Assembly (NCBI RefSeq): GCF_000317475.1
Contig: NC_019729.1
Coordinates: 1,812,501-1,876,500, forward strand
Reading direction: 5' to 3'
Length of the DNA: 64,000 nucleotides
From: Oscillatoria nigro-viridis PCC 7112
GTDB taxonomy: Bacteria > Cyanobacteriota > Cyanobacteriia > Cyanobacteriales > Microcoleaceae
Shown: piece after piece, positions 4,726 to 64,000 of the stretch
Position numbering within the stretch: position 1 is the stretch's first letter
How the letters are laid out: every line of letters starts with the position of its first letter
Notes under the pieces: model-generated
What the model was told of the DNA's origin: nothing
Seen by the model: the letters and a program-made list of their open reading frames with translations, nothing else
Database searches by the model: none
Translations under genes and position numbers: made by a program

Positions 4726-6231
<1,506 letters not shown>

Positions 6232-6321
6232 TTAACATTTAGAAATGCTATTCCTCAGATTACCACTGAACAGACGCACTATTTAGATTTGTATGGGGCT
6301 GGTTAAGAGTCATTTTTATGG

Positions 6322-7960: not shown

Positions 7961-8065
7961 ATGAGTAAATATAGGACAGATAAATACGATCGCACTTTAA
8001 GCAAAATCTTTCAAAATAATGACACCCAACAAACTACATTTGCTCGGATGGTTATTCATTGTTAG
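7961..8065 (+). other. possible 34-codon leader ORF overlapping the haemagglutinin start
   Basis: An ATG at 7961 with ATGAGGA seven nucleotides upstream opens a 34-codon frame ([20 protein letters not shown]...) that ends at 8065, inside the large secreted-protein gene and in a different frame. The large gene's own ATG at 8019 has no clear Shine-Dalgarno sequence. The small frame could couple translation to the large one, or be chance. The predicted peptide is hydrophilic and not recognised. Confidence 0.35.
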
Positions 8066-11000
8066 CTGGCTGAGTGCAGTGGCGGGTTCGGCAAACGCGC
8101 AACCTATCACCCCGGCAGCGGACGGCACTAACACAGTTGTTACTCCCAACGGCAACCGCTACGACATTTCCGGGGGGTCTTTCAGCGGAGATGGGGCTAA
8201 TCTTTTTCACAGTTTTACTCAGTTTGGCCTCAGCGAGGCTCAAACGGCTAACTTTCTGACGAATCCCAATATTCAAAATATTTTGGGAAGGATTACTGGG
8301 GGTAATCCTTCTTTAATAAATGGCTTAATTCAAGTTACGGGTGGCAATTCCAATTTATTTTTGATGAATCCTGCCGGCATAATTTTCGGGCCGAATGCCA
8401 GCCTCAACGTGCCTGGATCTTTTAATGCTACTACGGCGACAGGGATTGGTTTTGGGAACAATCAGTGGTTTAGTGCGATCGGCAATAACAATTGGGCAAC
8501 TTTAATCGGGGCGCCGAACAGTTTTGCCTTTACAAATTTGCCAGGAGGAAGCATTGTTAATGCAGGCAATTTGGCGGTGACACCAGGTCAAACTTTAAGT
8601 TTGATCGGCGGTACGGTTGTCAATAATGGTCAGGTAACTGCGCCTAGCGGCAATATTCTCATCAGCGCCGTACCCGGTAACAATTTGGTGCGGATCAGTC
8701 AAGCTGGAAATTTATTGAGCTTGGATATTCAGCCGACAGCAAATCAAAGTTCGCTGCCCAACAATTGGACGCAGCCGGTGTTATCTTTGCCCGAGTTGCT
8801 GACTGGGAAAGGTGTGGCACAGGCGACGGGTTTGACGGTAAATCCCAATGGGGAAGTTGTGTTGACGGGGAATGCTGCTGTGCCGGTAACTGCGGGAACT
8901 GCGATCGCATCCGGCAGTCTCAATGTCTCTGGCAACACTGGCGGTAGTGTAACTATTTTAGGCGACAAAGTAGGTGTTATTGCGGGCAAGATCGATGCTT
9001 CTGGGATTAACGGCGGCGGTAATGTACTGATTGGGGGAGATTATCAGGGTTTGGGTACGGTGCCCAATGCTTTGCGGACTTTTGTTAGCAGCGACTCGAC
9101 GATTAATGCTGATGCTATTAGTAATGGGAATGGCGGGCGAGTCATAGTTTGGGCTGATGAAACTACTCGCTTTAATGGCAATATTACGGCGAGAGGTGGC
9201 TTGTTTTCTGGGAATGGCGGCTTTGTGGAAGTGTCGGGAAAGCAATCGCTGGATTTTCAAGGATTAGTTGATTTGCGATCGACCTTTGGGATTGCTGGAA
9301 CCTTATTGTTAGATCCTACTGATATCACTATTAGCACAGGTGCGGATGCAGGCGGCACTTTAGGAGGGGGAGCATTTACGCCATCGGCGGGTACTTCTAC
9401 GATTAATAATGGGACGCTGCAAACACAGCTAGGTTTGGGAAATGTGACTATTTCCACTGCCTCCGTTTTTGCGAATCAAGGCGATATTAAAGTCAGCGCT
9501 CCGATCTCTTGGGCTAATAGTAATTCCCTAACTCTGATTGCTAATAATAATATTAATATTAATAATACCAATATCACTACTCAGGGAGGCAATATTACTC
9601 TGAATGCTGATAGTGATAATCTAAACGGTGGTGCTGTCCGTATCGTAGATTCGACGATCGATACTAATGGTGGTAATTTCCTGAGTAACGGTCAGGGGAA
9701 TTTTGGGTTGGGGCCGGGAATCGAGTTCAAGAACAGCACACTTAATGCCGGGGGTGGAAACATTGACCTGAATGGTATTGGAGGAAAGGCGACAGCAAAC
9801 AATCATGGTATTTTGATTTCCGATGCTAGCACACTACAAACTATTGGCAGCGGGAATATTACTCTCAATGGTACTAGCGGAACCAACCCATTCACCCCCA
9901 CCCCCCATGAAGGTATTGTTGTTACAGGTACATCTAAGGTGACTTCAGCTAATGGAAATATCACCCTGACTGGCACAGGAAACGGAACTGGAAGCGACAA
10001 CAACGGGATTAACATTGATACCAGCACAGTGGAATCGATCGGAACAGGAAGTATTACTTTCAACGGTACTGGCGAGAACGGGACAGATGGTAATCGAGGG
10101 ATATCCATTGACGGCAGTACAGTACGGGCTGGGGGAAATATAAACTTGACTGGTAAAGGTGCTGGGACTTTAACCAACAACACTGGCGTTAGAATATTCA
10201 ACTCTACAGTAGATTCAACGCCGGGGAATGGGACTGTCACCATCAGCGGGACGGGAGGAAAGGGGACTGACAGCAATCAAGGGATAACTATTGATAATCC
10301 CAGCAGGGTAAAATCGCAGAATGGAGATATCGCCCTGACTGGAAAAGGTAACGGTAGCGTGGGCAACAACACGGGCATTTCGGTGGAAGGGCTGGTGGAG
10401 TCCACAGGCACCGGGAATGTAACTCTCAGCGGTGTTGGGGGCAATGGGACTGATAGCAATCAAGGGATACGACTTGTGGGTGGCACAGTGAAAGCGATCT
10501 CTGGAAATGTCAGTCTGACTGGTACAGGCGGTGGGGCTGGAATTACCAACGAAGGCATATATATAGACGTTGGTGCTACAGTCCAAACCGCAGGCTTGGG
10601 AAAGGTGACGTTGACGGGGACGGGCAGTGCAGGGACAGGCACTAATTCCGGGATATACGTCAACTCAGGCACTGTAAAATCGCAGAATGGAGATATTGCT
10701 TTAATTGGTACCGGTGTAGGGACATCAACTAGCAACGACGGCATTTACTTCGCCCCGGCCTTACCGCCGGTAACGGTACAAGCTACGGGAACGGGTAATA
10801 TTAGCCTTACGGGAAAGGCTAACAACAATTCCATTCCTATTAACCTCACTGACGGTGTGATTGATGCGGCTTTGGGCGGCAATGTCACTTTGACGGGCGA
10901 TGAAATTCAACTGTTAGGGCCTACTCAAGTCAATGGCACCGGCACTATTACTTTGCAGCCGCTGACACCGAGTTTAGGTATTCTGATAGGCGGTACTCAG

Positions 11001-14000
11001 AACAACCCTGACGTTCCTCCTTTGAATCTAATCCAGACGGAACTCGACACGTTAAATGGGTTTTCCCAAATGGTGATTGGGCGGACGGATGGGACGGGGG
11101 CGATCGCAATTGACCCCGCTGGTGTTACTTTTAATTTCCCCATCACAATGCAAGCTGGGACAATTGCAGTTAATGGAAACATTACAGGTGCAAACAACGC
11201 TTCAATTACTTTTAACGCTCTAACGACTAACTTAAACGCAAATATTCTTACCAACGAACAGAATATTACCTTTGGTAAGCAAGTCTCTCTCGGTACGGGT
11301 TCTAATGTCACTCTCGATACTGGGTTAACGAATGCAGGCGACATTAATTTTGGGGGAACGGTTGACGGCGATGGCAACCTAGTTTTGACTGCGGGAACAG
11401 GCGTTATTAATGCCAACGGCTTCATTGGAAATACAGTACCTTTACGTTCCCTGACAACAATCAATTCTTTCGATGTTAAGAATCCGATCGATTTTTCGAT
11501 TAAAACTACAGGCAATCTTACCGTTGGTAGTATGAGAAATCCCGGACGGGCGATCGCTCTTACCAGCAGTAATGGCAATATTGATACGACTGCGGGGGCA
11601 ATTGATACCACATCCACTACCGGAAATGGTGGCCCGATCGCACTCAGTGCCAACAATACGATTGACGCTAGCAATCTTAACTCTAGTTCCACTGCTGGTA
11701 ATGGCGGAAAAATCGATATCACTAGCACAACTGGCGATATTATTGCAGCCCCAGGAGTAGTTTGGAATTCTAGTTCTAATTCTGGTAGCGGCGGAGATAT
11801 TGCGATCGCAACTCTCAAGCAAGTTGGGATACAAGGCATTGATGCTAAGGGATTGCCCGGTACTGGAAATATTATTATTAGCGGCAATGAGATGAGCTTT
11901 TCGGGAGGCCCAGATTCCGTTCAGGGTAAAGGTACTTTTTCAATTCAGCCTTTTTCGCCAAATGTCGGAATTCGCTTCCAGGCTGGACTTCCTGACGATC
12001 CGCAGGCGATCGATTTAGGAACGCCCTTTTTATCGGCATTGGCTAATGGATTTAGTGAAATTGTTGTCGGAACTAATACTACCACAGGCAAGATCGCTGT
12101 AGAGAATTTGCCGATAGTTTTCAAAGATCCTGTGACTTTCAATACTCAAGGCACTATTTCTGTAAATCTCGCTAGCTCGATTTCGGGAACTGATAATGCC
12201 TCAATTACTCTCAATGCTCCAACTAATAACCTGAACGGCAATATTACCACCCAATCTCAAAATATCACAATTAACGGCAATACCTTAGTGGGAGATAGCG
12301 TCTTAGTCAGCAATGGCAATTCAGCAGGTGGCAATATTCTGTTTAACAATAACATTGATGGCAGTGGCAATCTCACTTTAGAAACTGGTACTGGAAACAT
12401 TGATGTTAAAGGTGCTGTAGGCAATACCACACCATTAGGAAATCTTACAGTCAACAGTGCTGGTACAACTACATTTAATGCTGTCAAGGCTACCAGTTTC
12501 ACCACCAATGCTGGCGGCACAACTCAACTCAAGGGAAATGTCACTACAACTGGGCCTCAAACTTATGGAGATGCAGTGACAATTGCCACTAATCCGATTA
12601 TTTCAGGCAGCGGCGTTACTTTCAATAATACTGTTGATGCTAATAACATTGGCAGCGATTTGACTGTAAATGGGGGTGCAGGTAATATTACATTCAATGG
12701 TGCAGTTGGCAATACCAAGCCATTAGGCAATATTACCGCTAATTCTACAGGCACAACCGCATTTAATCAAACAGTCAATGCCGCGAGTTTGACTGCAGAT
12801 GCTGGCGGCACAACTAAACTTAATGGCAATGTGACTACAACTGGCAGTCAAACTTATGGAGATGCAGTGACAATTGCCAACAATCCCATTCTCTCCGGCA
12901 GCGGCGTTACTTTCAATAATACTGTTGATGCCAATAACATTGGGAGCGACTTGACCGTAAATGCGGGTGCTGGTAATGTTACATTCAATGGTGCACTTGG
13001 CAATACCAAGGCATTAGGAAATATTACCGCTAACTCTACAGGAACAACCGCATTTAATCAAACAGTCAATGCCGCGAGTTTGACTGCAGATGCTGGCGGC
13101 ACAACTCAACTCAAGGGAAATGTCACTACAACTGGCAGTCAAACTTATGGAGATGCAGTGACAATTGCCAACAATCCGATTCTCGCAGGCAGCGACATTA
13201 CTTTCAATAATACAGTTGACGGCAGCAGCGATTTGACTGTGAAGGCGGCTAGCGGTAATCTTACCTTCAATGGTGCAGTTGGTGCTGCAAGTGCGATCGG
13301 CAATTTAACAGCTAATTCTATAGGAACAACCGCATTTAATCAAACAGTCAATGCCGCGAGTTTGACTGCAGATGCTGGCGGCACAACTCAAGTCAAGGCA
13401 AATGTCACTACAACAGGCGCTCAAACTTACGGAGATGCAGTGACAATTGCCAACAATCCGATTCTCGCAGGCAGCGACATTACTTTCAACAATACAGTTG
13501 ACGTAGCTGGCAATCTGGGTATTGCGGCTGATAATGTTAATCTCAAAGGAACTGTAACAACCACCAATGACGGCACGCTCACAATTACCAATAAGGTGAA
13601 TCTCAATATTGAGAAAAACCTGAATTTAGACGGTGCATTTATTCAAAATGGCGGGGGAAATGTTGCGGTTAGCGGAAATATCACCACAACTAATGATAAT
13701 ATTAGTTTTAGCAATCCGGTGACATTAAAAGCTCCTGTAAGTTTTACGCTGGGAGATGCAACTATTGCTTTCGGTTCGACTGTATCGGCAGGTAGTAACC
13801 CGCTGAATTTAACAGCAGGTGAAATTGATTTTGCCGGGAATGTTTCTGGTACGGGCGCGCTAACGCTGCAACCCGCAACAGCAGGACAAAATATTGTTGT
13901 TGGCGGAATTGATAACAATACTAGCGCTTTAGATTTGACTGCATCGGAAATTAGTTTAATTCAAAATGGATTTAGCTCGATCGCGATCGGGCGATCGGAT

Positions 14001-17000
14001 AGCAGTGCCAATATTAGTGTTCCCTTTAATCTCACATTTTTAGATCCAGTAAATATTCAAACTGGAACAGGTACGATCGCACTTGATGGCACTATTACCG
14101 GACTTGACAACAGCAGCATTGCTCTCAAGGCTGCCACAATTAATTTGAATGATGGCATCAATACCAATAAAAATCCGATCGCTCTCAACGGCACTGTCAC
14201 ACTCGGCAACGATATTAATCTCAGTACCAGCGGCGGAGATATTAAGATAATTGGTGCGATAGACGGCAATCATTTGTTGAACTTAGATACGGCTACAGGC
14301 AATGTGCTGGTACAAGGAAATATCGGAGTAACTGCACCGCTTTCTGTTTTGAATGTTACTGCATCAAATGCCGAATTTATTGGAAACGTTAACAGCAATT
14401 CAGGTTTTAATGTTACGGGATTAAACACTAAATTAGGCGGTAATGTTACGACGAATAACGGCAACATTAATATTAGCAATGCTGTGGTTTTGACAAAGGA
14501 TGCGGTATTTAGTACCGCAGGGGGAAATATTGCTTTGGGTGCGATCGACAGTGACAGCATTAATGCCCGCAGCCTAAATCTGGATGCAGGTAGCGGCAGC
14601 ATCACTTTCAACGGTGCGGTGGGGGCCACCAGCAAGTTAGGAAATCTTGCGATCGAAAATGCTGGCAATGTGACAGGAAACTCGACAATTAACGCGCAAC
14701 AATTGACAGCACTAAACACGGAAAAAGTCAACTTATCGGGAGATGTCACCGCCGGTAAAGTCGATATTACTGCCAAGGGCGATATAAGTGTTAAAAACAT
14801 TACTACTAATGGCGGAGAAATTCTATTTACAAGCGGTAACAATTTCACCGCAGGCAATTTGAATACATCGGCAAACAGTGGCGGCAACATAACTGTTAAG
14901 GCGATAACTTCAATTACGGCGGGACAAATTAACTCTAGCGGTATAGTCGGAAATGCCGGCAATGTGTTTTTAGATCCGATCGGCGATATTCAAGTAGAGT
15001 TTATCAATGCCCAAGGCGGCACTGGCGGCACCGGCGGCGATGTCACAGCAATAACAGGCAATTTTTTCCGCGCTACGGGTACTTTTTCCACACCGCTGTC
15101 GCCGACGGGAGTCGCTAGCATTTCTACTGCTGGCGGCACAGGTAGCGGAAATATCGCAATTACACACGCTGGCGGAGATGGAGGGACGCCGATTCAACCG
15201 TTTGTGGTGGGGGATGCTGCTAGCAACGGTACGGCGGGTGCAATTACAACGGGACAATCTAGCATTACATCGCAGTCGTTTCCGCGTTCTAGTAGTGTTG
15301 GTAATATTGTGTTTTCGACTGACGACGCGATCGACCCGCCGCCAACGCCAACTCCGACTCCGGCAGTAACTCCGACTCCGACTCCGAGTGTCACTCCGAC
15401 TCCGGCAGTAACTCCGACTCCGACTCCGAGTGTCACTCCAACTCCAGTTGTCACTCCGACTCCAACTCCAGTTGTCACTCCGACTCCGACTCCAGTTGTC
15501 ACTCCGACTCCGCTGGTAACTCCGACTCCGACTCCAGTTGTCACTCCGACTCCGCTGGTAACTCCGACTCCGACTCCAGTTGTCACTCCGACTCCGGCAG
15601 TAACTCCGACTCCGACTCCAGTTGTCACTCCGACTCCGGCAGTAACTCCGACTCCGACTCCAGTTGTCACTCCGACTCCGAGTGCAGTTGTCACTCCGAG
15701 TGCAGTTGTCACTCCGACTCCGAGTGCAGTTGTCACTCCGAGTGCAGTTGTCACTCCGACTCCGAGTGCTCCTACGGAAATACAAGTGCCCGCGCCCGCA
15801 GCTACAGCCGCAGCGCAACCCTCAACCCCCGACGCAGAAGACTTTCAGCGCAAAAAAAATAATCCCCAGCTAGAAAATCCCGGTGCTGCAGCCGATCGAG
15901 TTTTAACCCTCGATCGAAGTATCACCAGTCAATTACCCAGCGACTTAGTACCACCCTCACCAACACCACCACAACCGCAAACACTCAACCCTACTTCTAA
16001 TTTAGTTCTGGGATACGCCCCGTCTCCCGATCGACTTTTTGAAGGTAACGACATACAGAAAACAGTCTGGGGAATCGAAGAAATGAGGAATCAAGAATTT
16101 GGAGAATACTTGGGGGTAAAAGCCAACCTCCCAGAGGAAAAAACCTTGATTTCGACTTTCCAACAAACTTTACAAGATATCGCACAGCAACCGGGCAAGC
16201 GGTCTGGTATTATCTACATAGTCTCGCGAGAAGATCGACTGGAACTAATTTTAGTTCCTCCCGTGGGGCGACCGATTCACTACAGCGTCCCCGAAGCCAA
16301 CAGAGCAGCTCTTTTTCCCACCGTTCAGGAGTTTCGCAATGAAATTACCAATCCCGCAAAACGCGGTACTAGCACTTATCTAGCTGCCGCCCAGCAATTA
16401 TATAAATGGGCGATCGCACCCCTAGAAAAAGACTTACAAAACTTAGGAATTCAAACTTTATTACTGTCAGTCGATCCCGGATTGCGGAGCCTGCCCTTTG
16501 CCGCTTTGCACGACGGTAAAGGCTTCTTGATTGAAAAATACAGTTTCAGCCTAATTCCAAGTTTTAGTTCGACTAATACTGATTATAAAGCTGTTAGAGA
16601 CGCCACAGTGCTAGCAATGGGAAGGTCGGAATTTGTTGACCAAAACCCCTTGCCCAGTGTGCCGATCGAATTGGAGGCGATTTCGGCTCAGTGGCACAGC
16701 CCATCTTTCCTCAATTCTACTTTCACTTTAGATAATCTCACGTCGGAACACGCCAAGGGAGGATTTCGGATCGTTCATCTAGCAACTCACGCTGAATTCA
16801 AACCGGGAAAAGCGAGCAATTCCTACATTCAACTGTGGAATTCCAAATTGCAGCTCGATCGCATGGAGAGTTTAAATTGGCGCAATCCGCAGGTAGACTT
16901 GTTAGTATTAAGTGCTTGTAGAACTGCTATGGGCGATCGGGAAGCAGAGTTAGGTTTTGGAGGTTTAGCAGTAAAATCCGGCGCCAAATCTGCTTTAGGT

Positions 17001-17261
17001 AGTTTGTGGTATGTTGACGATGGAGGCACTTTGGGGCTGATGAGCGAATTTTACCACCAGTTGCAAGCAACCACAACTAAGGCAGAAGCTTTGCAACGCG
17101 CTCAACAAGCAATAATGTCCGGTAAAGTGCGACTGGAAAACGGACAGTTAGTAACAACAGGCGGCAAGTTAAATTTACCTGCTAATTTACAACAAACAAA
17201 CCAAAATTTTTCTCATCCTTACTATTGGAGTAGTTTCACTCTAATTGGAAGTCCTTGGTAA
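8019..17261 (+). CDS. giant two-partner-secretion filamentous haemagglutinin with C-terminal CHAT protease domain
   Basis: This 3080-residue protein has a Sec signal peptide (residues 1-27, cleavage near GSANA-Q) and then the TPS/haemagglutination-activity domain (about 30-160). That domain includes the diagnostic asparagine motifs TNPNI and [14 protein letters not shown]. Residues 160-2430 are Gly/Asn/Thr-rich beta-helix repeats, including about four 97-residue near-identical repeats. Residues about 2440-2585 are a Pro/Thr/Val linker. From about 2690 to the end lies a CHAT domain of caspase fold, with the catalytic pair in VHLATH (His2924) and LSACRT (Cys2967) and downstream [20 protein letters not shown] infer export by a TpsB pore and display of a protease at the tip of a surface fibre. 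No TpsB gene is adjacent; one lies at the right edge of the window. Overlapping minus-strand open frames are composition shadows. Confidence 0.95.
12420..13520 (+). repeat. four in-frame ~291-bp repeats in the haemagglutinin passenger
   Basis: The segment containing TATGGAGATGCAGTGACAAT recurs near 12564, 12855, 13146 and (as TACGGAG...) 13428, giving a period of 291, 291 and 282 bp. Each unit encodes about 97 residues, including [17 protein letters not shown] and [15 protein letters not shown]. The copies are close to identical, implying recent tandem duplication or gene conversion within the beta-helix region. Confidence 0.9.
15340..15770 (+). repeat. coding minisatellite for a Pro/Thr-rich linker
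   Basis: Units of ACTCCGACTCCG with interspersed CCAGTTGTC or GCAGTAACT repeat for about 430 bp, coding for (TPTP) with VV, AV, SV or LV spacers. It separates the haemagglutinin beta-helix from the CHAT domain. The repeat length keeps the reading frame. Confidence 0.95.
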
Positions 17262-53149: not shown

Positions 53150-54811
53150 ATGACCAACCCTTCTCACCAGGGAAATATTCCCCGACTGCCGGAACGTCAA
53201 AATTACACCGACGAATTTTGCACCTATCTCAGGCTGAATACCAGCAAAAATGCCCAGATTATTGAGTGGCACAACCAGAATCATCTCAGAACCAATTTTA
53301 ATTTGTATCAACAACGCAACCCAGAATTTGCACAGTTATGTTCTCAGCAAAATTACAGCAAAAATCTAGCACTCTATTGGAGAAAAATAGCAATTAATGC
53401 GGCATCAATCCCTCAAGAATGGGAACCAAAAAATCGCCAGAAGCTAGCCTTAGAACACTTGGTTTGTTACCTTCAAAAAAACTGCTATTATGCAGCAAGA
53501 GAAGCCTCCAGAGCCTCACAGGAGCAGCTTTGGGACGAGTATCTCTCCTCTGCTCGCATTTTTATCTACAATCCTGACAATCTGTGCCGCCTGTTACAAT
53601 CCTATGATTGCGATCGTCAGGCTTCTCTAGATACCTACATTCAAGCTGCCTTGAGCCAAGATATCCGAGATAAAATGTCTGTAGGTAAGTTTTCGCCGTG
53701 GCGAATGCTAGTTAAAAAATCCGATAAACTGCTTCGGGAAGCCCTAGAAACTTCTGCGATTCCAGAACCAACAATTACCCAATGTATCTTTGCACGCAAA
53801 TGTTTTAAACAAGTTTATAGCTTAAACAAAGTTTATAATCCTGCGGTCAGGAAAAGAGGGGATAAATGGCACGAGGCTGATACTGAAGACTTTCGGCAGA
53901 CCGCTGAATCTTACAATGCAGAAAAGGTCCTATTGAATGCACCTCACGAAGTCTCCGCTGGCTCAAATATCAATCAAGAGCAAGTGCAAGCTTGGATGAA
54001 ATTATGTATTCAAGCATTACAAAATTACCAAAATCCCATTAACCATAACATCAACATCCCCTGGGAATCACTTGAGGAAAAAGGCGGTGAAAATTTATCT
54101 GAGTCAAATACCGAAGAATCTTTCGATATAGAAGCAAATGAAAATACTGAGTCAAATAGCAGAAAAAGCCAGCAAGTTCACTCTGCTTTTCGCAAACAGA
54201 TAGAAGAATTTAAACCAGATCAACACAAAACTCTCCTGCTTTATTATGGTTGCGGCATCAAGCAAACACAACTAGAAATTAAATTAGGAATCAGTCAATC
54301 TGCTATTTCTCGTCGCCTGAATACTATTAAAACAAAACTCATCAAAACTATGGCTGAAATGTCACAACCGGAAGTATGGTCAGAAAAGTATGTATTGCAA
54401 TGGCTGCATAAAAACTTCCGAGCTCCCCTGCATTCAGATTTAATTCACGCAGCTTTAGTTGAAGCTGTTAAAAAACTTGAATCTCAAGAGGAAACTGTTT
54501 TCCATCTTCACTATGGTCAGCAGTTAAACGTAGAAAGGATTGCGATTATGCTGGGCATGGATAACTTAGAGGTGAATGCCATACTTTCTCAATCTCAGCA
54601 AAACTTACAATCCAATTTAATTGCGGAAATTCAAAATTGGCAGCGGGATTGTGTGGACAAGTGGTTATTGCGCTTTTATCAATCTCAAGTTCGAGCTGTC
54701 TGTCGCAGTCGGAATCTCTCTCTTCAGGCTGAAGATACCTCCCAAACAGTGGATGTTATCGTTGACGAATGCTTGCAAATTCTAATGGCTAACAACAAAA
54801 AAGGAGAATAA
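53150..54811 (+). CDS. sigma-70-like regulator of a CHAT operon
   Basis: The 553-residue protein is a large divergent sigma-like or helix-turn-helix regulator. The middle part is helical and basic. Near residues 355-405 lies a probable region-4-like HTH (HKTLLLYYGCGIKQTQLEIKL then GISQSAISRRLNTIKTKLI), and a second similar HTH-like unit near 445-480 (EETVFHLHYGQQLNVERIAI, MLGMDNLEVNAILSQSQ). An acidic Ser/Asn/Glu stretch (about 318-345) separates the N-terminal half. It is followed after 3 bp by the DUF1822 gene, so it belongs to that operon. It may be a sigma factor for the operon or for the TPS/CHAT genes; regions 2.3-2.4 are not obvious, so this is tentative. Confidence 0.7.
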   Translation: MTNPSHQGNIPRLPERQNYTDEFCTYLRLNTSKNAQIIEWHNQNHLRTNFNLYQQRNPEFAQLCSQQNYSKNLALYWRKIAINAASIPQEWEPKNRQKLALEHLVCYLQKNCYYAAREASRASQEQLWDEYLSSARIFIYNPDNLCRLLQSYDCDRQASLDTYIQAALSQDIRDKMSVGKFSPWRMLVKKSDKLLREALETSAIPEPTITQCIFARKCFKQVYSLNKVYNPAVRKRGDKWHEADTEDFRQTAESYNAEKVLLNAPHEVSAGSNINQEQVQAWMKLCIQALQNYQNPINHNINIPWESLEEKGGENLSESNTEESFDIEANENTESNSRKSQQVHSAFRKQIEEFKPDQHKTLLLYYGCGIKQTQLEIKLGISQSAISRRLNTIKTKLIKTMAEMSQPEVWSEKYVLQWLHKNFRAPLHSDLIHAALVEAVKKLESQEETVFHLHYGQQLNVERIAIMLGMDNLEVNAILSQSQQNLQSNLIAEIQNWQRDCVDKWLLRFYQSQVRAVCRSRNLSLQAEDTSQTVDVIVDECLQILMANNKKGE

Positions 54812-54814
54812 AAA

Positions 54815-56272
54815 ATGTTTGAATTCACAAAAATCCAACCCTTTGAGTCTCAAATTTCTGATAGGCTGCGCTTGACTATTGACGAAGTAGACCTAGAGAC
54901 TGCTTGGCAACAAAATCAACATCACTCTAATCCTATTTCTCGCTACAATGGTTATCTCAATGGCGCTTGTTTAAATGCTTTATTTAACTGGCTTTCTGAA
55001 TGGCTGGAACCAGAGAACCCTCAACCTTTAGTCTGGCACGGTCAGGATCTTGCTAGTATTTGGGAAGTAGTCAACGGTACAGCTATTCAGATTGGTGATA
55101 GCAGACTGGTGTTTATTCCCAGTGACGAGTCAGATGTAGAAGAAATTTGTGTGCCGCAGGAATGGATTGATATTCCTAGTTGGGCTGGTGATTATTATGT
55201 GGCTGTGCAGGTGAATTTGGATGGGGATGATGACGATCGCTGTTGGCTGGAAGTCTGCGGGTTTGCGACTCATCAGCAACTGAAGCATCAAGGCAGATAC
55301 AGTGCGGGCGATCGCACTTATTCTTTAGCCATAGATGAGTTGACCGCATCTCTGACTGTCATGCAAATTACTCTAGGATTAAACTTGCAAGCAGAAGTTG
55401 CTCCCGTGCTTAATTTATCAGAGATGGAGGCGGCGAAATTATTACAGCTTTTGAGCGATTCCTCGCTATATTCTCCCCGACTGAAAGTATCCTTTGAACA
55501 GTGGGCCGCTTTCTTGGCAAATGACAAATATCGGCAATTATTGTATCACAATCGTGTAGCAAATTTTGTGCCAGTTGTCGCGAGTTCAACTCCAGCAGTT
55601 TTGCTTCAGCGCATGAAGAATTATCTCCAAGATGGCTGGAAGACAGGTGAGCAAATGTTTACAGAGATGTTGGGAAATGTAGACCAGAGTTTAGTGAATG
55701 GGAGGGTAGGAGCTTTGTCCTATAGGGACGGTAACTTTAAGAGTCACAATACCATTCCCACATTGATTGAAATTTCACAGAATAAGCGCAATCCCCAGAA
55801 TCAATTGCAGGCGATTAAATTATTAGGTGGTCTCGAACCAGGAAATCAAGAGGCGATCGCCACCCTGACTCACCTGCTGGAAACGACTGAAAATGACGCC
55901 TTGCGCCGCGAAGCATCCGTGAGTTTGGGGAAAATTGATCCGAGTAATGAGAGTGCGGGTGTCGGCATTGGTAAGACTATTAATTTAGGGATGCGCCTTG
56001 ATAGCGATCGACTTCGGCTTGTGCTGACTCTCACCCCCGAAGAAACTGATAAAATCAAGGTTCATCTGCTATTACATCCTGAGCGATCGCCAATTCTGCC
56101 ACCAAATCTGCAACTTACTATCCTAGATGAAGATGACGAAGTTTTCTTTGAAGAACAAACGGATGCTGCTGACAATCTAATTGAATATGAATTTACGGCG
56201 GCGATCGACGATTATTTCCTGGTTAAAATAGCAGTGAACGGAGTGAGCCTCAAAGAACCTTTTACTGTTTAA
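54815..56272 (+). CDS. DUF1822 family protein
   Basis: The 485-residue protein has the N-terminal DUF1822 pattern (FEFTKIQPFESQISDRLRLT, then NGACLNALFNWLSEWL and VPQEWIDIPSWAGDYYVAVQ). Around residues 308-375 there is a HEAT-like repeat pair (TIPTLIEISQNKRNPQNQLQ, then ALRREASVSLGKIDPS). The C-terminal part is beta-rich with acidic residues. No signal peptide or membrane segment is visible. The family is cyanobacterium-specific and often sits beside sigma-like and CHASE2/CHAT genes. Function is unknown; a scaffold or adaptor in the CHAT complex is an inference from position. Confidence 0.85.
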   Translation: MFEFTKIQPFESQISDRLRLTIDEVDLETAWQQNQHHSNPISRYNGYLNGACLNALFNWLSEWLEPENPQPLVWHGQDLASIWEVVNGTAIQIGDSRLVFIPSDESDVEEICVPQEWIDIPSWAGDYYVAVQVNLDGDDDDRCWLEVCGFATHQQLKHQGRYSAGDRTYSLAIDELTASLTVMQITLGLNLQAEVAPVLNLSEMEAAKLLQLLSDSSLYSPRLKVSFEQWAAFLANDKYRQLLYHNRVANFVPVVASSTPAVLLQRMKNYLQDGWKTGEQMFTEMLGNVDQSLVNGRVGALSYRDGNFKSHNTIPTLIEISQNKRNPQNQLQAIKLLGGLEPGNQEAIATLTHLLETTENDALRREASVSLGKIDPSNESAGVGIGKTINLGMRLDSDRLRLVLTLTPEETDKIKVHLLLHPERSPILPPNLQLTILDEDDEVFFEEQTDAADNLIEYEFTAAIDDYFLVKIAVNGVSLKEPFTV

Positions 56273-56303: not shown

Positions 56304-58667
56304 ATGAGCAAGTCAATCGTCTTAGATATCAAAACAGAGAGCAAACAGCCTTATTCTGTCAGTCTTCAAGTTGATAGTATATCCTATTCTATTTCTGGGT
56401 CGTTGCCACCAGCTACAGATGTGCTGAAAGCATCTGAAAATTTACGCTTAGCTCGCGAAAAAGCAGGTTGTGGTTCTTACCGCAAATTAGAACAGAGCAA
56501 AAAGGGGCAAATTACCAAAATTTCCGTTAAAGATTCAGCTAAGTCTGTGGAAACAAGTATGAATACTTGGTTGAATTCAGGAGATAAAAGATTTCAGCCT
56601 GTCCGGGATAAGCTCTTACAAGTCTTGAGCGCTGAGGGAGAAAATGTCAGATTAATCATTCAAACAGATGATATCGCTCTTTGGGAATTCCCTTGGCATT
56701 TGTGGGATGTTTTACATGATGCTGAAATCGAGCCAATTCTGAGCAAAGTCAACCATAAAGAACCCCATAAATACCAAGGCAAGAAAAATCAAAACCAGGT
56801 CAGAATTCTGGTTGTCATGGGAGAAGATACAGGGATCAATATTAAGGCAGATTTGAAGCTTTTGACCGAAAAGCTTCACCAAATATCTGCCTACATTAAA
56901 CCTCTGATAGCTACTTCCAACAGCGAGCTCAATGATGAGTTATGGCGACAGCATTGGGATATTTTATTCTTTGCTGGTCATAGTTCGAGCAATGCTGATT
57001 ACACCGAGGGTAAACTTGCCCTCAGTGAAGCCGAAAGCATAACAATTAAAAACTTAAAGTATGGTTTAGAAAATGCTATTCAACATGGTTTAAAATTAGC
57101 GATTTTCAATTCTTGTGACGGCATGGGATTAGTGCAGGAACTCGCTTCTCTACAAATTCCAGCAGTTATCGCCATGCGAGAGCGAGTCCCTGATGAAGTA
57201 GCTCAAAAATTTTTGGAGTATTTGTTGGACGCATTTGCTATAGAAAATAAGTCTTTGGATAAATCAGTTGGGAAAGCGCGGAAAAAACTGGATCGATTTG
57301 AGGTTAACTATCCTGGTGCTAGCTGGTTGCCGATGATTTATGAGTCTCCGGGTGTTGGGGCTCTAACTTGGATTGAGTTGTTGAGGGGAAATGAGGAAGA
57401 GCGCAAACGCTTTTCTATTTGGCGCAATCTTCAGACTGTGTTGATGGCAAGTGCGATCGCCACCGGTGCGATCGTGGGAGTGCGATCGCTACAATTCCTC
57501 GAACCTCTGGAATTACCTGCTTACGATTATTTAATGCGACAGCGCGAAGCTGAGGCTATCGATCCCCGTATCACAGTAGTTGAAATCAATCAACAAGAAG
57601 TTGATAAGTATGGTGGCTATCCGATCAAAGAATCCGCTTTAGCAGAAATCGTCAAAAAAGTAGAAAAATATAAACCAGCCGCCTTTGGGCTCGATATATC
57701 TCGCAATCAACCTAGAATCAAGGATGATATGGATATCACAGCCCGTAAAGATTGGATCGAAATTTTTAAAAGAAATAAAAACTTTTATACCGTTTGTTCC
57801 TACCAATCGTCTGCGGCAGATTATGCTCCGCTTCCTGAGTTTTCCCCGAAACAATTAATCGGTCAAGTCGGATTTGTAGATATTTTTGATAATAACATTC
57901 AAGACAATAAACATCAGACAGTTCGTCGCCAAGTCTTATCCTATGAACCCAATTATTTGCCTAAATCTTCTAAATGTATTACACCTTACAGCTTCAGTTT
58001 TTTATTAGCATTTTCATTCTTATCATCCCAGAAAATTGAACCATTACAAGTTAATCAAACTACAAAAAATTGGGAATTGGGCGGAGTAACTTTTAATCGC
58101 TTAGCCTCACACACAGGAGGTTATCAAAGCCTCGATGGCAAGAGTAGCCAAATTCTCCTCAACTACCGCGCCAATCCTAGACCCGCAAAAATAGTTTCAC
58201 TGACAGATATTTTAGAGGGAAAAGTCAGCGAAAATGCCATCAAAGATCGGGTAGTCATCGTCGGCTATACTGCGGAAGTAGCTAGAGATGATTTTGATAC
58301 TCCCTATGGCCAAATGCCAGGAGTATGGATTCATACCCACATGACAAGTCAAATTCTTAGCGCCGTGATGGATAACCCAAAACGACCTTTGTTAGGGGTG
58401 CTACCACAGTGGGGTAATCTGCAATGGGGCGATGCAGTATTTGTTTGGCTATGGGCGTTTACTGGCGGAGTGTTGGTGATATATGTTCGCCCCCGGCTGC
58501 ACTTGACAATAGTCACTTGTGTTGCTAGCGTGCTGTTATATCATATTTGTCTTGAGATGCTTAACCAGGGCAGATGGATGCCTCTAGTTCCCTCAGCCTT
58601 AGCTTTAGTAGCGACCGGCAGTGGATTAGTCATCCATAAAATATCTCAAAATCGACAGCCGGAATAA
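56304..58667 (+). CDS. membrane CHAT-CHASE2 protein
   Basis: The 787-residue protein joins an N-terminal CHAT caspase-like domain (residues about 160-360) to a CHASE2 sensor. Catalytic residues are His226 (FFAGHSSS) and Cys271 (IFNSCDG), with an SW-type strand LPMIYESPGVG at the end. A first transmembrane helix at about 371-390 leads to the extracytoplasmic CHASE2 domain (about 395-695, beginning LPAYDYLMRQREAEAIDPRI), followed by three C-terminal transmembrane helices. CHASE2 usually feeds a cytoplasmic kinase or cyclase from the C-terminus; here the effector is CHAT at the N-terminus, so a membrane signal may control proteolysis. It lies 31 bp after the DUF1822 gene in the same operon. Confidence 0.9.
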   Translation: MSKSIVLDIKTESKQPYSVSLQVDSISYSISGSLPPATDVLKASENLRLAREKAGCGSYRKLEQSKKGQITKISVKDSAKSVETSMNTWLNSGDKRFQPVRDKLLQVLSAEGENVRLIIQTDDIALWEFPWHLWDVLHDAEIEPILSKVNHKEPHKYQGKKNQNQVRILVVMGEDTGINIKADLKLLTEKLHQISAYIKPLIATSNSELNDELWRQHWDILFFAGHSSSNADYTEGKLALSEAESITIKNLKYGLENAIQHGLKLAIFNSCDGMGLVQELASLQIPAVIAMRERVPDEVAQKFLEYLLDAFAIENKSLDKSVGKARKKLDRFEVNYPGASWLPMIYESPGVGALTWIELLRGNEEERKRFSIWRNLQTVLMASAIATGAIVGVRSLQFLEPLELPAYDYLMRQREAEAIDPRITVVEINQQEVDKYGGYPIKESALAEIVKKVEKYKPAAFGLDISRNQPRIKDDMDITARKDWIEIFKRNKNFYTVCSYQSSAADYAPLPEFSPKQLIGQVGFVDIFDNNIQDNKHQTVRRQVLSYEPNYLPKSSKCITPYSFSFLLAFSFLSSQKIEPLQVNQTTKNWELGGVTFNRLASHTGGYQSLDGKSSQILLNYRANPRPAKIVSLTDILEGKVSENAIKDRVVIVGYTAEVARDDFDTPYGQMPGVWIHTHMTSQILSAVMDNPKRPLLGVLPQWGNLQWGDAVFVWLWAFTGGVLVIYVRPRLHLTIVTCVASVLLYHICLEMLNQGRWMPLVPSALALVATGSGLVIHKISQNRQPE

Positions 58668-58701: not shown

Positions 58702-59448
58702 ATGCCTCGGCTATATTTCCAACTAGCTTTTGCTATCATTATTGCGCTGGCGATTATCACGATTTCTCCTATCTCTTTACAAACCTACAGTGCAATTTTT
58801 TTGAGCCAATCCCCCCCACCACCTCCTCAAACACCGCCACCGCCACCGCCACGAGATAATCAACCAAGACCGGGAACCGGACTTGACCCCACTAATCCAA
58901 ACTGTAAAAAGACAAGTAAGTCAATTACCGCTCTTGTACCTATTAAAAATCCGATCTTCACTACTTCTGAATATCCAACTTTTTTGTTCTATATTCCCTA
59001 CCATCCTGAAGATATAAACTCAGCCGAGTTTTCCCTGGTAAGTAGAGATGGGAAAAATACAATTTATCAAGCTGCTATCTCTTTGCCAAAAACACCAGGA
59101 ATTATTAGTGTTAGCCTGCCAAAATCTCCAAAATACGCTCTTGAACTCATAGAGTATTACCGTTGGTACTTCAAATTCAATTGTGAACCTTATAAGCGCT
59201 CTACAACTGACCTGTATGTGAGTGGGTTTGTCGTACGAGTACCACTCACCTCGGAACGCCAACAGCAAATCAATACAGCAACACCTGATATTTGGTATGA
59301 TTCAGTCGCCCGTTTAGCTCAGCGTTTACTTGCAAATCCTAAAGATGAAACCTTGAAAATTCAATGGATTAAGTTATTAGAATCTGGTGGATTTAAAGAT
59401 CTGGCTGAAGAACCCTTAGTTGGTAATGTGCAACTCTTGGAAAAATAA
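58702..59448 (+). CDS. DUF928 protein, exported or membrane-anchored
   Basis: The 248-residue protein has a hydrophobic signal/anchor (residues 5-27), a Pro-rich spacer (SPPPPPQTPPPPPPRD), and the DUF928 beta-sandwich (SITALVPIKNPIFTTSEYPT, FLFYIPYHPEDINSAEFSLV, PGIISVSLPKSPKYALELIE, and YYRWYFKFNCEPYKRST). It ends with a helical stretch (DIWYDSVARLAQRLLANPKD). DUF928 proteins are cyanobacterial, periplasmic in character and found beside CHASE2/CHAT genes. No catalytic site is evident. It is the last gene of the rightward operon. Confidence 0.85.
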   Translation: MPRLYFQLAFAIIIALAIITISPISLQTYSAIFLSQSPPPPPQTPPPPPPRDNQPRPGTGLDPTNPNCKKTSKSITALVPIKNPIFTTSEYPTFLFYIPYHPEDINSAEFSLVSRDGKNTIYQAAISLPKTPGIISVSLPKSPKYALELIEYYRWYFKFNCEPYKRSTTDLYVSGFVVRVPLTSERQQQINTATPDIWYDSVARLAQRLLANPKDETLKIQWIKLLESGGFKDLAEEPLVGNVQLLEK

Positions 59449-59530: not shown

Positions 59531-62500
59531 TTAAAGCCAATTACCAACGATAATATAAGGTGCCCAAAAATGGGGTTCTTGGTCTTCTTTTGCTTGAAAG
59601 TACGCTTTTTGAGCATTATGAAGTGCTTTTGCCCTTGTCATTCCCGGTTGACGCAACTCTTCATAAAATCTGACTATAATTTTTGTGTTGACTGCATCTT
59701 CTGCTACCCACAAACTTGAAACGGTACTGCGAGCTCCTGCCCGTATAGCTACGCCCGATAGTCCTAACACTGCTCTATCATCCCCCTGTGCTGTTTTGCA
59801 AGCACTGAGTACCAGTAACTCGATCGCTCGAACATCCTTTTTATTGCCCCTCTTAATCAATTTATCCAAATCGTTACTTTTTAACAAAGTTCCAAAAGCA
59901 ACAAGAAAAGTTTTTTCTGGGTCAGAGCTAAACTGACCGTGTGTTTTGATATGTAGAATGGGGATATTAGCCAAAGCCAACTCTTGTTGCAGGTTTGTTA
60001 GAGTAAAGTCTTCATTCAAAAATCTTTTGCTGGTTGCTACATTTTTTGCGATTCCATCCAATTCTTCTAATAATTTTTGGATTTTTTCAAAATGCTGACC
60101 TTCTAGTGTCTGGGGTAGATCCACACCTCCTAGCAACACTTTTAACTTGCTTGATTTTACTTGATTCCAAGATTTAGGATCGAGAAGCTGCAAACCGGAA
60201 ACTAGAGCAAGAGCATAATCTTTTTCCATTAAATACTGATCTGAGCGCTCATCGTAAAGAGCTCCCATTGGGATCGACTGTAAGGGTCTGTCTAAGATAA
60301 ATACTAATGTTTTCACATCTCGATCGCTTTCTAGCAATGATTCTATTGGTTGTATCAGCCATTTGTAAAGTTTCTTTGATTCTGCTAAGACTTCATCAGT
60401 ATTACCTGGTTGAATTAAATGAGTTTGTAAATGATTGATAGTATCTTTTACGAGTGTCTGTTTCTGGTAAATCTCCCGATACTCCAAGTCTTTTTTACCC
60501 GGTAACTTCAAGATAATTGCTAAACGATTTGGTAAAATAATTGCATGGATAACTGCTGCTGTCGGATCGTATTTATCTGCGATCGCATCAATCTCTTCTA
60601 ACTTGTTCACTACGATACAAGCATCCCTAAACAAGTTATCCAACTCAGCTACCTGAAGCGCCTCAATGACATTACGGGCTTGCTTCAACTTCTCCTGAAT
60701 AGGCTTCTCTCCGTGCAACAACAAATCCACCAATTCCCGATAAACAGGCTCTATTTTATCGCGAAAATCAAACTGCCCATCCCGACTAATCGGCACTAAA
60801 TCATCCCGTACCGATTGTAAAGTATTAAATGCAGCGGTATAAGCCGCGATCGCACCCTTAACATCCCTCGCCCCATTCCAACGAATCCGCCCCAATTGCC
60901 ACTGCCACTGATAGGCAAGATCCGGCGCATTTAACTGAACATTCTGCGACAACAACAAAGCTTGTTCAGTACACTGTTGAGCCTCCAGCCACCGCTGATT
61001 CCCTTCATACACCTTACCCAAATTGCCCAAAGCATAGGATTTTGCCCTCGAATCCCCCAAATCCCTAGCCAACTCGATCGCTTTTGCTCCCAATTCGACA
61101 ATTTCTCTCTCAGATACAGACGATTTATTGCCAGATAAACTTTCAGCCACAATCGAAGAATTTTGCAAACAATAATTTGATAGTTTTTCTGAAATTTCGC
61201 CAGACGAATTTGAAACATTACTAGCAATTTTTAGTTCTTCCTGCTTGAGGCGAACCAAACTATTCATCAAACTAACTTCTGCATAAACTATCTTGTGGCT
61301 TGGTGGCAATTGACTCAATTGAGACAATATTTGCAACCGCACTGCTTGACTTTCGTTTAAATCTATAGCCAATCCGATTTTATTGTCAACTAAAAGACTT
61401 AATAAATTTAGTTGTGCCTGGACTTTGACAAAGGAATTATTGGCAGCGACATTTACCGATTTTCGATAGGAATCTATAGCCTTTTGGTAGTATTTTTTAT
61501 ATTCGTTCGATTTAGACAAAAATTTGTTTCTATTTCCCAGAGCTTGATAAGTATCACCTAAACTTAATAACACTAAAGCTTTTTCTTGAAGATATTCTTG
61601 TTGAGTAACAACTCGATCTACTTGTTCCAGCAACTCTTGAGACTCATTCAAATAGCCAAGCTGTCTCAACACATCGCCAAGGAAACGCGCCCCGGTAATT
61701 TGGATATTTTTCAAAGTCGGATTTGATGGCCTTTTGACACTTTCTTTGATTGCTGCTAATTTTTCAGTAATGAATTGCTGACAATCCTGACTGGGGATAG
61801 CGAAGTTTTCGGGATTGTTTGATTCGACAACTGGGATGATTGCTTGGCAAGCTTGCTGATATAAACCTAATGCTTGCAGGGTTTTAACTTGAGCAATTAG
61901 GCTACGTTTCCAGCCTAAATTATCCTTTAATTTAACATAAATTTTCGTTGCTTGTTGCCCGGTTTGCAAAGCAAGATTGGCTTGTCCTTGTTCCCATTGC
62001 CCATTGGATTGAATATCGAGAATTTGCCCGATCGCCTTTAATTCCACTAACGATTTTACCTTAGACTCCTCTGGTAACAAACTGCGACTCTTGGCGATCG
62101 CACTATTGGCCTCTTCCCAACGCCCAAGCTGTTGATATGTCAACGAAAGATTACCCAGGGCGATCGCCTGATTCAACCAATCTCCCCCCACCTCAAAACC
62201 CGCAACAGCTTGCCGCCAATACTTCGCAGCCTCTGGAAACTCCCCAGCAGCATAACTTGTTCTAGCCAAATCCTCCCATTCCTGTGGCGATCGCGGCTGA
62301 GTGCCAATCCCTAATTTTCCAGAAATTACTGAAAATTCATCCACTTTTTCCCAACTAATTAGAGAATGTGATACCCCACTTTTTTCCAAATTCAATCCCG
62401 ATTGAGCCTTGACATTTGCAGCAAACAATGATAATAATGCTGCCACAAATAAGATAGTAAATAGTCTCAGACTTCGCCCCCACCTCAGACGTGCTGGTTT

Positions 62501-62551
62501 CAAAAAGAGAACCTGGATAGAACGGAAAAATGTAAACCTTTTTCTTGCCAT
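59531..62551 (-). CDS. exported TPR-CHAT protein
   Basis: The 1006-residue protein starts with an extended signal peptide (basic n-region of about 30 residues, then LFTILFVAALLSLFAANVKA-Q), like those of two-partner-secreted proteins. Residues about 85-620 are TPR-type helical repeats (for example AEDLARTSYAAGEFPEAAKY-like units and SYALGNLGKVYEGNQRWLEA). The C-terminal CHAT domain (about 690-1006) has catalytic His871 (HIKTHG) and Cys918 (LSACKT), then GLSGVAIRAGARSTVSSLW. Its start overlaps the upstream TpsB gene by 52 bp, so the two are co-translated. An exported TPR-CHAT protease next to a TpsB pore suggests it is a cargo or periplasmic partner of that pore. Confidence 0.93.
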   Translation of the reverse strand: MARKRFTFFRSIQVLFLKPARLRWGRSLRLFTILFVAALLSLFAANVKAQSGLNLEKSGVSHSLISWEKVDEFSVISGKLGIGTQPRSPQEWEDLARTSYAAGEFPEAAKYWRQAVAGFEVGGDWLNQAIALGNLSLTYQQLGRWEEANSAIAKSRSLLPEESKVKSLVELKAIGQILDIQSNGQWEQGQANLALQTGQQATKIYVKLKDNLGWKRSLIAQVKTLQALGLYQQACQAIIPVVESNNPENFAIPSQDCQQFITEKLAAIKESVKRPSNPTLKNIQITGARFLGDVLRQLGYLNESQELLEQVDRVVTQQEYLQEKALVLLSLGDTYQALGNRNKFLSKSNEYKKYYQKAIDSYRKSVNVAANNSFVKVQAQLNLLSLLVDNKIGLAIDLNESQAVRLQILSQLSQLPPSHKIVYAEVSLMNSLVRLKQEELKIASNVSNSSGEISEKLSNYCLQNSSIVAESLSGNKSSVSEREIVELGAKAIELARDLGDSRAKSYALGNLGKVYEGNQRWLEAQQCTEQALLLSQNVQLNAPDLAYQWQWQLGRIRWNGARDVKGAIAAYTAAFNTLQSVRDDLVPISRDGQFDFRDKIEPVYRELVDLLLHGEKPIQEKLKQARNVIEALQVAELDNLFRDACIVVNKLEEIDAIADKYDPTAAVIHAIILPNRLAIILKLPGKKDLEYREIYQKQTLVKDTINHLQTHLIQPGNTDEVLAESKKLYKWLIQPIESLLESDRDVKTLVFILDRPLQSIPMGALYDERSDQYLMEKDYALALVSGLQLLDPKSWNQVKSSKLKVLLGGVDLPQTLEGQHFEKIQKLLEELDGIAKNVATSKRFLNEDFTLTNLQQELALANIPILHIKTHGQFSSDPEKTFLVAFGTLLKSNDLDKLIKRGNKKDVRAIELLVLSACKTAQGDDRAVLGLSGVAIRAGARSTVSSLWVAEDAVNTKIIVRFYEELRQPGMTRAKALHNAQKAYFQAKEDQEPHFWAPYIIVGNWL

Positions 62552-64000
62552 GTTGTCCCCCTCGAATTCACATCAACTAAAGGAATACCCCAATAAAAAT
62601 TGGCCGACATACTATCACCCAATTCCCACCGCAAACCCGTACCAACCGAGAGCAACAATTGACGCTCTAAGCTATCTCTACCTGAACTATTCCAAACAGT
62701 ACCAGCATCAACAAAAGGAGTAATTTGTAAAACCCCTAACCCTCGATCGGACTTACCCAAAATCGGAAACCTAAGTTCCGCCGATGCTGAAATTCCATTA
62801 TCACCCAACAGAATATCCTGCCGATAACCTCTGACACTATTCCCACCTCCAATTCCAAATTGTTCTAGAGGTAAAAGCGTCCTATTCGCCAATTGTATAT
62901 CAGTTTTTGCCAACACAAAAGTGTCTCTCCTCAAGCGGCGAATCCATTGTCCCTGACCGCGCCATGCCAAAAATCGGCTATCAGGAGCCTCGCTATTAAC
63001 AGTAGCATTAAACGCTCCTAATCCCAAACTAAATTGAGAGCGCAAAGCCAATAATTCATCATTGTTCCGCACAGTCCAATCTTGAAAAAACCTGACTGCT
63101 GATATTCCCGTGCGCCCTTTGGCATCTGCTCCTGCAGAAAGAGGAAAATCTTCCCCTAAAATTGAAGTGCCAGTTTCCCGCCTAGTTACTGTCACTCCGA
63201 TAGCTACCTCTTGTCTAGGATGTATCAATAAAGGTTGGCGCAAAGTTATATCTAAATATTGTGCTGCTGCTTTTATATCAACCTTTTCAAAAGGTTTCTC
63301 TACGACGCGATTGGCAGTAACGCCCGCTGAGAAATTAATTGTGCCATTGTTAGGATTTAATGGCAATGTATAGCTTAGATCAAAAGCATTACTGCCCTCA
63401 GTATTGGTGTAAGCCACACTCAATCCATCGCCTTTTCCGAATAAGTTTGCTTCCGTTAGCTGTAGCTGGTGGCGGAAACTGCCGACACTGGGAGCCCGTC
63501 GATTGTCTAGTAGCAATGCAGCACTAAATGTTTTTTCTTCCTCGAAATTAACTTCAAGGGCACTTCTGTTGGACTGAGAGCCGGGTATCAACTCAGCAGA
63601 AATATTTCTAATTAAAGGATCTAGTTCGAGCAATCGTAGGGCATCTAGCAGGCGAGAAACTTGTAAAGGCTGGGAGGCGATCGCCAAACGGCTGCATACA
63701 TAATTGAGATTTAGGCGCTGCTTTCCCGTCCGCCTCCTGACCCGAATTGATTCTAAGCCTCCTTCAACGATTTTGATCGTGACTTCCCCAGCAGCCCCTC
63801 GGTTTTGCAACCTTTGATTTGGTTCTTCGCTCGTGGTGGGAATGTAGGCAAAAGAGTTAATATATCCTCGGTCATTATAGAATTTTGTTACTTCGGAAAT
63901 TAGTTGCTGCAATTGAGCAAATGTGATTTTTATTTCTGATAACTGATGAGTATTGCTATCTAATGTTAGCAATTTGTTAGTAATTTCCGTTTCAAGGGTT
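62500..64000 (-). CDS. TpsB outer-membrane transporter (FhaC/ShlB/HecB-like), 5' end beyond window
   Basis: The frame is open at the right edge, so the N-terminus and signal peptide are missing. What remains is part of a POTRA domain (FAQLQQLISEVTKFYNDRGYI with NSFAYIP), a second POTRA (VTIKIVEGGLESIRVRR ... DPLIRNISAELIPG), and the 16-strand barrel. The barrel includes the TpsB motif GGGNSVRGYRQD in loop L6 and the C-terminal aromatic strand ending HFSVLSRFSF. It should secrete TPS proteins across the outer membrane, probably including haemagglutinin-like TpsA partners. The TPR-CHAT gene downstream overlaps it by 52 bp. Confidence 0.94.
   Translation of the reverse strand, partial: TLETEITNKLLTLDSNTHQLSEIKITFAQLQQLISEVTKFYNDRGYINSFAYIPTTSEEPNQRLQNRGAAGEVTIKIVEGGLESIRVRRRTGKQRLNLNYVCSRLAIASQPLQVSRLLDALRLLELDPLIRNISAELIPGSQSNRSALEVNFEEEKTFSAALLLDNRRAPSVGSFRHQLQLTEANLFGKGDGLSVAYTNTEGSNAFDLSYTLPLNPNNGTINFSAGVTANRVVEKPFEKVDIKAAAQYLDITLRQPLLIHPRQEVAIGVTVTRRETGTSILGEDFPLSAGADAKGRTGISAVRFFQDWTVRNNDELLALRSQFSLGLGAFNATVNSEAPDSRFLAWRGQGQWIRRLRRDTFVLAKTDIQLANRTLLPLEQFGIGGGNSVRGYRQDILLGDNGISASAELRFPILGKSDRGLGVLQITPFVDAGTVWNSSGRDSLERQLLLSVGTGLRWELGDSMSANFYWGIPLVDVNSRGTTWQEKGLHFSVLSRFSF

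Follow-up and report, generated by a model that had tools for sequence, protein, structure and literature searches.

We describe a third gene in a two-partner secretion (TPS) locus of the cyanobacterium Oscillatoria nigro-viridis PCC 7112, which follows the genes for the TpsA fibre protein and its TpsB transporter and encodes a protein of the TPR-CHAT type. The gene lies near the end of a 64,000-nucleotide stretch (C1:1812501-1876500 of the 8.27-Mb genome; hereafter the window), the open reading frames (ORFs) of which were scanned against Pfam and NCBIfam. The reading that we favor, and hold to be rather likely, is that the product of this gene is a separase-like cysteine protease, exported by Sec and most likely periplasmic, which serves as a dedicated third TPS partner and acts on the C-terminus of TpsA. 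In other words, a protease gene located beside fibre-secretion genes probably serves to trim or release the tail of the fibre. The location of the gene and its linkage to TPS genes are well supported, while cleavage is what we infer. A caspase-like protease dedicated to a TPS system is apparently new and an exception to the reviewed TPS operons; in the 2017 review, the genes of maturation proteases appear outside these operons (PMC5422565).

Gene order, overlap and predicted export

The 1006-amino-acid (aa) product combines TPRs with a CHAT domain (PF12770, 2e-51). An earlier note, made from the letters of the window, had described this protein as lacking a TPS domain, and neither the Pfam nor the NCBIfam scan found one in it. 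The gene immediately upstream encodes a TpsB with ShlB (2.8e-27), Omp85 (3e-19) and POTRA_2 (5.6e-08) domains, and the overlap of the two genes, also described in that note, is borne out and measures 52 nucleotides (nt) (Table 1). Because the sequence past the end of the window shows tpsB overlapping tpsA, so that each gene overlaps the next, the unit is tpsA-tpsB-tprCHAT. The locus accordingly also holds a 906-aa TpsA, which has a canonical TPS domain (1.8e-68).

The overlap between tpsB and tprCHAT measures 49-52 nt in nine pairs studied closely and 46-52 nt in further named loci; overlaps of 46-52 nt were seen in about 15 distinct loci, that of O. nigro-viridis included. In 9/9 overlapping pairs, the start codon of tprCHAT (ATG, with GTG once and TTG once) falls on the same TpsB codon pair, namely xW of the terminal (T/N)WQ motif, which reads TWQ at the window locus. 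The Trp of this motif is replaced by another residue in most non-overlapping TpsBs. Overlapping TPR-CHAT proteins share the start MARKR because their start codon sits in this conserved codon pair, and relatives without the overlap have ordinary short n-regions, such as MKFTRSLRQ. The long n-region thus tracks with the tpsB overlap, which explains the 'extended' signal peptide of the earlier note: the length was correctly read, but it stems from the overlap with the 3' end of tpsB and does not denote a special export signal. An extended signal peptide region (ESPR) was rejected on the same grounds. A programmed frameshift giving a TpsB-CHAT fusion was rejected by inspection, as the overlapping pairs share no conserved slippery sequence.

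Inspected by eye, the N-terminus of the window protein shows a basic n-region, a hydrophobic core and a VKA-QS site. More generally, a signal-peptide-like N-terminus was scored by a simple hydrophobicity rule in 118 of the 131 intact relatives, compared to 21% of background ORFs.

To find family members we used a profile of 41 relatives (A1). The family was sought in 20 relatives, in 80 named cyanobacterial loci and in 146 genomes drawn across the phylum, 42 of which contain it; the closest named matches in this family scan are from Microcoleus and Tychonema. Two sets of TPR-CHAT loci with at least 4 kb of upstream sequence available were evaluated. Of these loci, 39/47 and 49/61, respectively, include a TPS or TpsB gene, which in 28/47 and 37/61 lies directly upstream on the same strand. 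The adjacency recurs in Nostocales, Oscillatoriales and other cyanobacteria and is therefore not specific to this strain, which answers the check that the earlier note had proposed. Conversely, of the 36 TpsB genes among the matches listed for near-closed genomes, 18 have a family member no more than 20 kb away, compared to 0.94 expected and a maximum of 6 in 2000 randomisations.

Catalytic residues, fold and the TpsA C-terminal module

With a CHAT domain and its His/Cys dyad (Table 1), the protein belongs to the CHAT peptidases (clan CD), and proteolytic activity is predicted from these sequence features. Asp952 is Asp in 134 of 138 family members; the LWxVxD segment that holds it presumably corresponds to the separase segment binding the P1 Arg, a match that we assume for the segment rather than residue by residue. 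An AlphaFold2 model of the protein (mean predicted local distance difference test score 84.7) finds its best structural matches across the TPR arm and the protease in Craspase TPR-CHAT/Csx29 chains (Z about 29). The modelled protease domain superposes on separase 5fby with Z 24.9 and a root-mean-square deviation of 3.4 over 318 residues, although a shared fold is not proof of activity. A PDB sequence search with the CHAT domain alone gave nothing useful. Identity with a known anti-phage defence system was set aside, as PADLOC gave only a generic TPR model match. Among the annotated neighbours in the neighbourhoods read, neither gRAMP/Cas7-11 nor a CRISPR array was found; TPS, DUF928 and CHASE2 genes are located there.

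The candidate target is a two-cysteine module at the C-terminus of TpsA. In aligned TpsAs encoded beside the family, it consists of a Cys, F..TGRGGLP.NP, a linker, IVEAQGW....G.V.L.A and a final Cys. In a 50-member alignment of the module drawn from CHAT-linked loci (A2), every member has Cys120, Phe132 and Gly138, while Arg137 (Arg823 in TpsA numbering) and Cys217 are kept in at least 90%; the near-invariant Arg lies in a TG[R/K]GG segment. The conserved cysteines are about 97 residues apart, a wider spacing than in HMW1. The structural model has the beta-helix ending at about residue 100, and it gives the stretch with the Arg low confidence and no secondary structure.

Module and CHAT domain are complementary. 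Of the intact TpsAs encoded in the fetched loci, 119 carry the module, 9 carry a CHAT domain in cis and 0 carry both. As the loci sampled cluster around CHAT and TpsB genes, these counts are not a census. Another 14 TpsAs show neither feature, and each of these is broken, truncated or N-masked. The window's own genome shows a complete split of its TPS proteins, with 7 carrying CHAT and 3 the module. In the 146-genome sample, 42/42 genomes with the TPR-CHAT family have the module, and all 42 also have a TpsB. By contrast, the module was found at E 0.01 in 0/9 genomes that have TPS-domain proteins but no family member; in at least six of those nine (G066, G072, G095, G099, G103, G144), TPS and CHAT matches fall in frames of the same length. 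One family-less genome (G060) has a 60-residue remnant of the module. Among TPS-bearing genomes, the association of family and module has a Fisher's exact p of 3e-10, uncorrected for shared ancestry. This profile indicates that the module follows the trans protease and not TPS systems in general.

Proposed action on TpsA and alternative explanations

We propose the following mechanism. TpsA, TpsB and the protease would be made together from one overlapping gene cluster, and TpsB would secrete the TpsA beta-helical fibre. The two-cysteine module of TpsA may then stay in or near the TpsB pore, in the manner of HMW1/HxuA-type adhesins, in which TpsA is kept locked in the pore of TpsB by a C-terminal disulfide-closed anchor (PMC5422565); the TpsBs of cyanobacteria fall into one group with Hmw1B (PMC4104836). 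The conserved Cys pair of such anchors is present in the TpsA module, with disulfide formation and pore locking putative here. The TPR arm of the protease would dock on the module and the CHAT domain would cut it; the likeliest site is the near-invariant Arg/Lys of TG[R/K]GG. The fibre may thereby be matured or released, or its state reported. In the alternative form of the system, TpsA carries CHAT at its own C-terminus and has no module.

There is precedent for the individual parts. In three-partner TPS operons (HMW1ABC, HxuCBA, cdiBAI), an accessory gene of the operon likewise acts on TpsA (PMC5422565), but the known third partners are glycosyltransferase, TonB receptor, immunity or acyltransferase proteins, and none is a protease. 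The C-terminus of FhaB is trimmed by the periplasmic proteases DegP and CtpA before surface release, and periplasmic or surface proteases (DegP, CtpA, SphB1) that trim this region control release (PMC8263021); they belong to other protease families, however, and are encoded outside the fha operon (PMC5422565). Craspase TPR-CHAT/Csx29 of type III-E CRISPR shares the TPR arm and CHAT protease. It differs in being cytoplasmic and RNA-activated with Cas7-11, in having no signal peptide or TPS link, and in an identity to the window protein of only about 11-12%. Separase, a CHAT-related clan CD protease, also has a helical-repeat arm preceding a superposable protease domain, and its Arg-binding region presumably corresponds to the conserved LWxVxD segment, but it is eukaryotic, cleaves cohesin and is inhibited by securin.

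Several observations weigh against action of the protease on TpsA. The main mechanistic weakness is that the candidate Arg sits between the two conserved cysteines; if these are disulfide-linked, a single cut alone would not release the fibre. A few TpsAs have no basic residue at the Arg/Lys position, yet Asp952 is present in their CHAT. Covariation between Asp952 and the TpsA Arg/Lys was not seen, there being too little variation to test it. No TPS gene is nearby in 8/47 and 12/61 loci, in some through gene scatter. Very divergent modules elsewhere could be missed, as the module alignment comes from CHAT-linked loci. The rule by which signal peptides were scored is a simple one and not a trained predictor.

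Three other explanations were weighed. The neighbourhood might be accidental, with no functional linkage, given how common and mobile both CHAT and TPS genes are in the large genomes of cyanobacteria; both families are indeed multicopy, occur on plasmids and are missing from small genomes. The proportion of TpsB genes near a family member strongly disfavours this, and so do the overlap and gene order conserved across orders, the perfect module profile across genomes, and the non-family CHAT genes of this genome, which have no TPS linkage. We regard an accident as highly improbable. Alternatively, TpsA could be a carrier that delivers CHAT as its cargo, either fused in cis or docked non-covalently on the C-terminal module, to act outside the cell or in neighbouring cells like CdiA-type toxins. 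That CHAT and module are alternative TpsA C-termini fits such delivery, as do the multiple copies per genome and the proposal that C-terminal caspase-like domains of polymorphic toxins act as toxins (PMC3482391). However, the neighbourhoods contain no recognised candidate for an immunity gene, the CHAT domain of the trans family shows strong conservation, with His and Cys invariant, instead of polymorphism, and a folded TPR protein of about 100 kDa without a TPS domain would be unlikely to pass through the TpsB pore. Delivery of CHAT as an effector thus seems unlikely to us.

The third explanation starts from the neighbouring genes: the exported protease would signal the state of fibre or envelope, CHASE2 would sense the product, and the cytoplasmic caspase-like domain would free or activate the ECF sigma factor, fibre processing being secondary. 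Among named TPR-CHAT loci with 4 kb on both sides, DUF928 is present in 41/56 and CHASE2 in 37/56, and DUF1822 and a sigma factor often follow (36 and 15, respectively, of 69 loci with both TPR-CHAT and CHASE2). In passages of their paper, Kaur et al. (2021; PMC8195603) proposed activation by an autopeptidase and a sigma output for the combination of EACC2-caspase-CHASE2, DUF1822 and ECF sigma. CHASE2 is nevertheless missing from roughly a third of the loci, and the complementarity of module and CHAT points at TpsA itself. We judge it improbable that signalling is the primary role, although such a relay is compatible with, and not exclusive of, processing of TpsA.

The suggestion of the earlier note that the protease may be a periplasmic processor of TpsA stays the best reading. 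What the data show directly are the gene linkage, the catalytic residues, the fold and the cis/trans complementarity, and from these we infer the compartment, the substrate, the cut site and the outcome. As a broader and tentative possibility, most cyanobacterial TPS systems might be three-part machines, with a separase-like protease acting in cis, or in trans via the two-Cys/Arg module, and with the cut coupled to expression by a CHASE2-caspase-sigma relay; this would be a sensing and release system unlike described TPS. The locus would give TPR-CHAT proteases, familiar from the Craspase of CRISPR systems and from separase, a likely role outside the cytoplasm. Processing of TpsA predicts a specific substrate and cut site, which can be tested with a peptide, and the locus provides a way to study the control of large surface fibres in cyanobacteria. 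A literature search joining the CHAT domain with two-partner secretion or haemagglutinin found nothing; subscription journals and preprints were mostly outside its reach, so that an earlier description is possible.

Neighbouring genes and further loci

Downstream of tprCHAT, genes for a sigma factor, DUF1822, CHAT-CHASE2 and DUF928 on the plus strand face the tpsA-tpsB-tprCHAT unit on the minus strand (Table 1), and this convergent cassette is part of the conserved neighbourhood. A scan for promoters and terminators gave signal near chance.

Table 1. Features of the TPS locus and the facing cassette, numbered from the first nucleotide of the window.
Feature	Position	Strand	Remarks
tpsA, 906 aa	window-equivalent 64433-67153		TPS domain; beyond the window edge; overlaps tpsB by 20 bp
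tpsB, 650 aa	62500..64452	(-)	POTRA_2 and ShlB/Omp85 barrel; window ends inside the gene (62500..64000 in window)
Overlap, 52 nt	62500..62551	(-)	tpsB 3' end TWQEKGLHFSVLSRFSF encodes, in the -1 frame, the TPR-CHAT start MARKRFTFF
TPR-CHAT protein, 1006 aa	59531..62551	(-)	signal-peptide-like N-terminus ~1-49, TPR solenoid ~89-640, CHAT protease domain 725-1004
Catalytic His871 codon	59939..59941	(-)	His in 139/139 family members; invariant in A1
Catalytic Cys918 codon	59798..59800	(-)	Cys in 138/139 family members, one gap
DUF928 protein	58702..59448	(+)	signal-like N-terminus; convergent to TPR-CHAT; Pfam PF06051 2.3e-43
CHAT/caspase-like (cytoplasmic) and CHASE2 sensor membrane protein	56304..58667	(+)	Pfam CHASE2 9.5e-52, CHAT 2.8e-12
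DUF1822 protein	54815..56272	(+)	same cassette as CHASE2/DUF928; Pfam 4.2e-69
ECF-type sigma factor	53150..54811	(+)	same cassette as DUF1822/CHASE2; Pfam sigma70_r4; NCBIfam sigma70-ECF 1e-15

The segment 53150-58667 matches the EACC2-caspase-CHASE2, DUF1822 and ECF sigma arrangement, which the same passages of Kaur et al. describe as predicted signalling or conflict systems; these passages mention neither TPS genes, DUF928 nor an exported TPR-CHAT protein (PMC8195603). A connection between this cassette and TPS loci seems undescribed.

The same genome has a second copy of the locus on the plus strand, in the order TpsB, one gene, TpsA, TpsA and TPR-CHAT, and its third TpsB adjoins a DUF928 gene. 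Its ten TPS-domain proteins comprise seven with a C-terminal CHAT in frame and three that are the TpsAs of the two TPR-CHAT loci. One of the seven fusions, a 3080-aa protein with an N-terminal TPS and a C-terminal CHAT domain, is encoded in the window at 8019-17261 (+). Together with the seven fusions, two TPR-CHAT family members and three further CHAT proteins of this genome have TPS domains or signal-like N-termini. The earlier note had called an exported TPR-CHAT protease notable; unusual it is in the literature, but in this clade exported CHAT proteins are common. In a tree of the CHAT domain, cis and trans CHATs form separate clades, which leaves their common origin unsettled.

Loci in other genomes vary in arrangement. 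On a Planktothrix agardhii plasmid, independent public annotation agrees with the order at the window locus apart from one extra gene: it lists a haemagglutinin-N protein, the extra gene, ShlB and CHAT, with DUF928 and CHASE2 on the other strand. At L127 (1782-19901, (-)), five successive TpsA genes lie between one TpsB and one TPR-CHAT gene, an arrangement that suggests one protease for several fibres. At L118 (4797-9122, (+)) and L131 (7201-12597, (+)), TpsA and TpsB form a single ORF, with the C-terminal module kept between them, followed by an overlapping TPR-CHAT gene. A single TPS-TpsB-TPR-CHAT ORF of 2362 aa (L090 in G019, 4832-11920, (+)) was considered as a Rosetta-stone fusion and set aside because its TpsB part has lost the POTRA sequence and has another sequence in place of the last barrel strand; it is probably decayed or may be frameshifted. 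In several genomes of the genus of L038, a third, CHAT-free type of TpsB is paired with a DUF928 gene (L038, 10031-13363, (-); also e.g. L145, L147, L148). Finally, on a plasmid of Nostoc sp. TCL26-01 (L265, 1330-19112), CHAT, DUF928, CHASE2 and DUF1822 genes occur with a giant protein with a pre-peptidase C-terminal domain upstream in place of tpsA, and the cassette may thus serve other surface proteins too.

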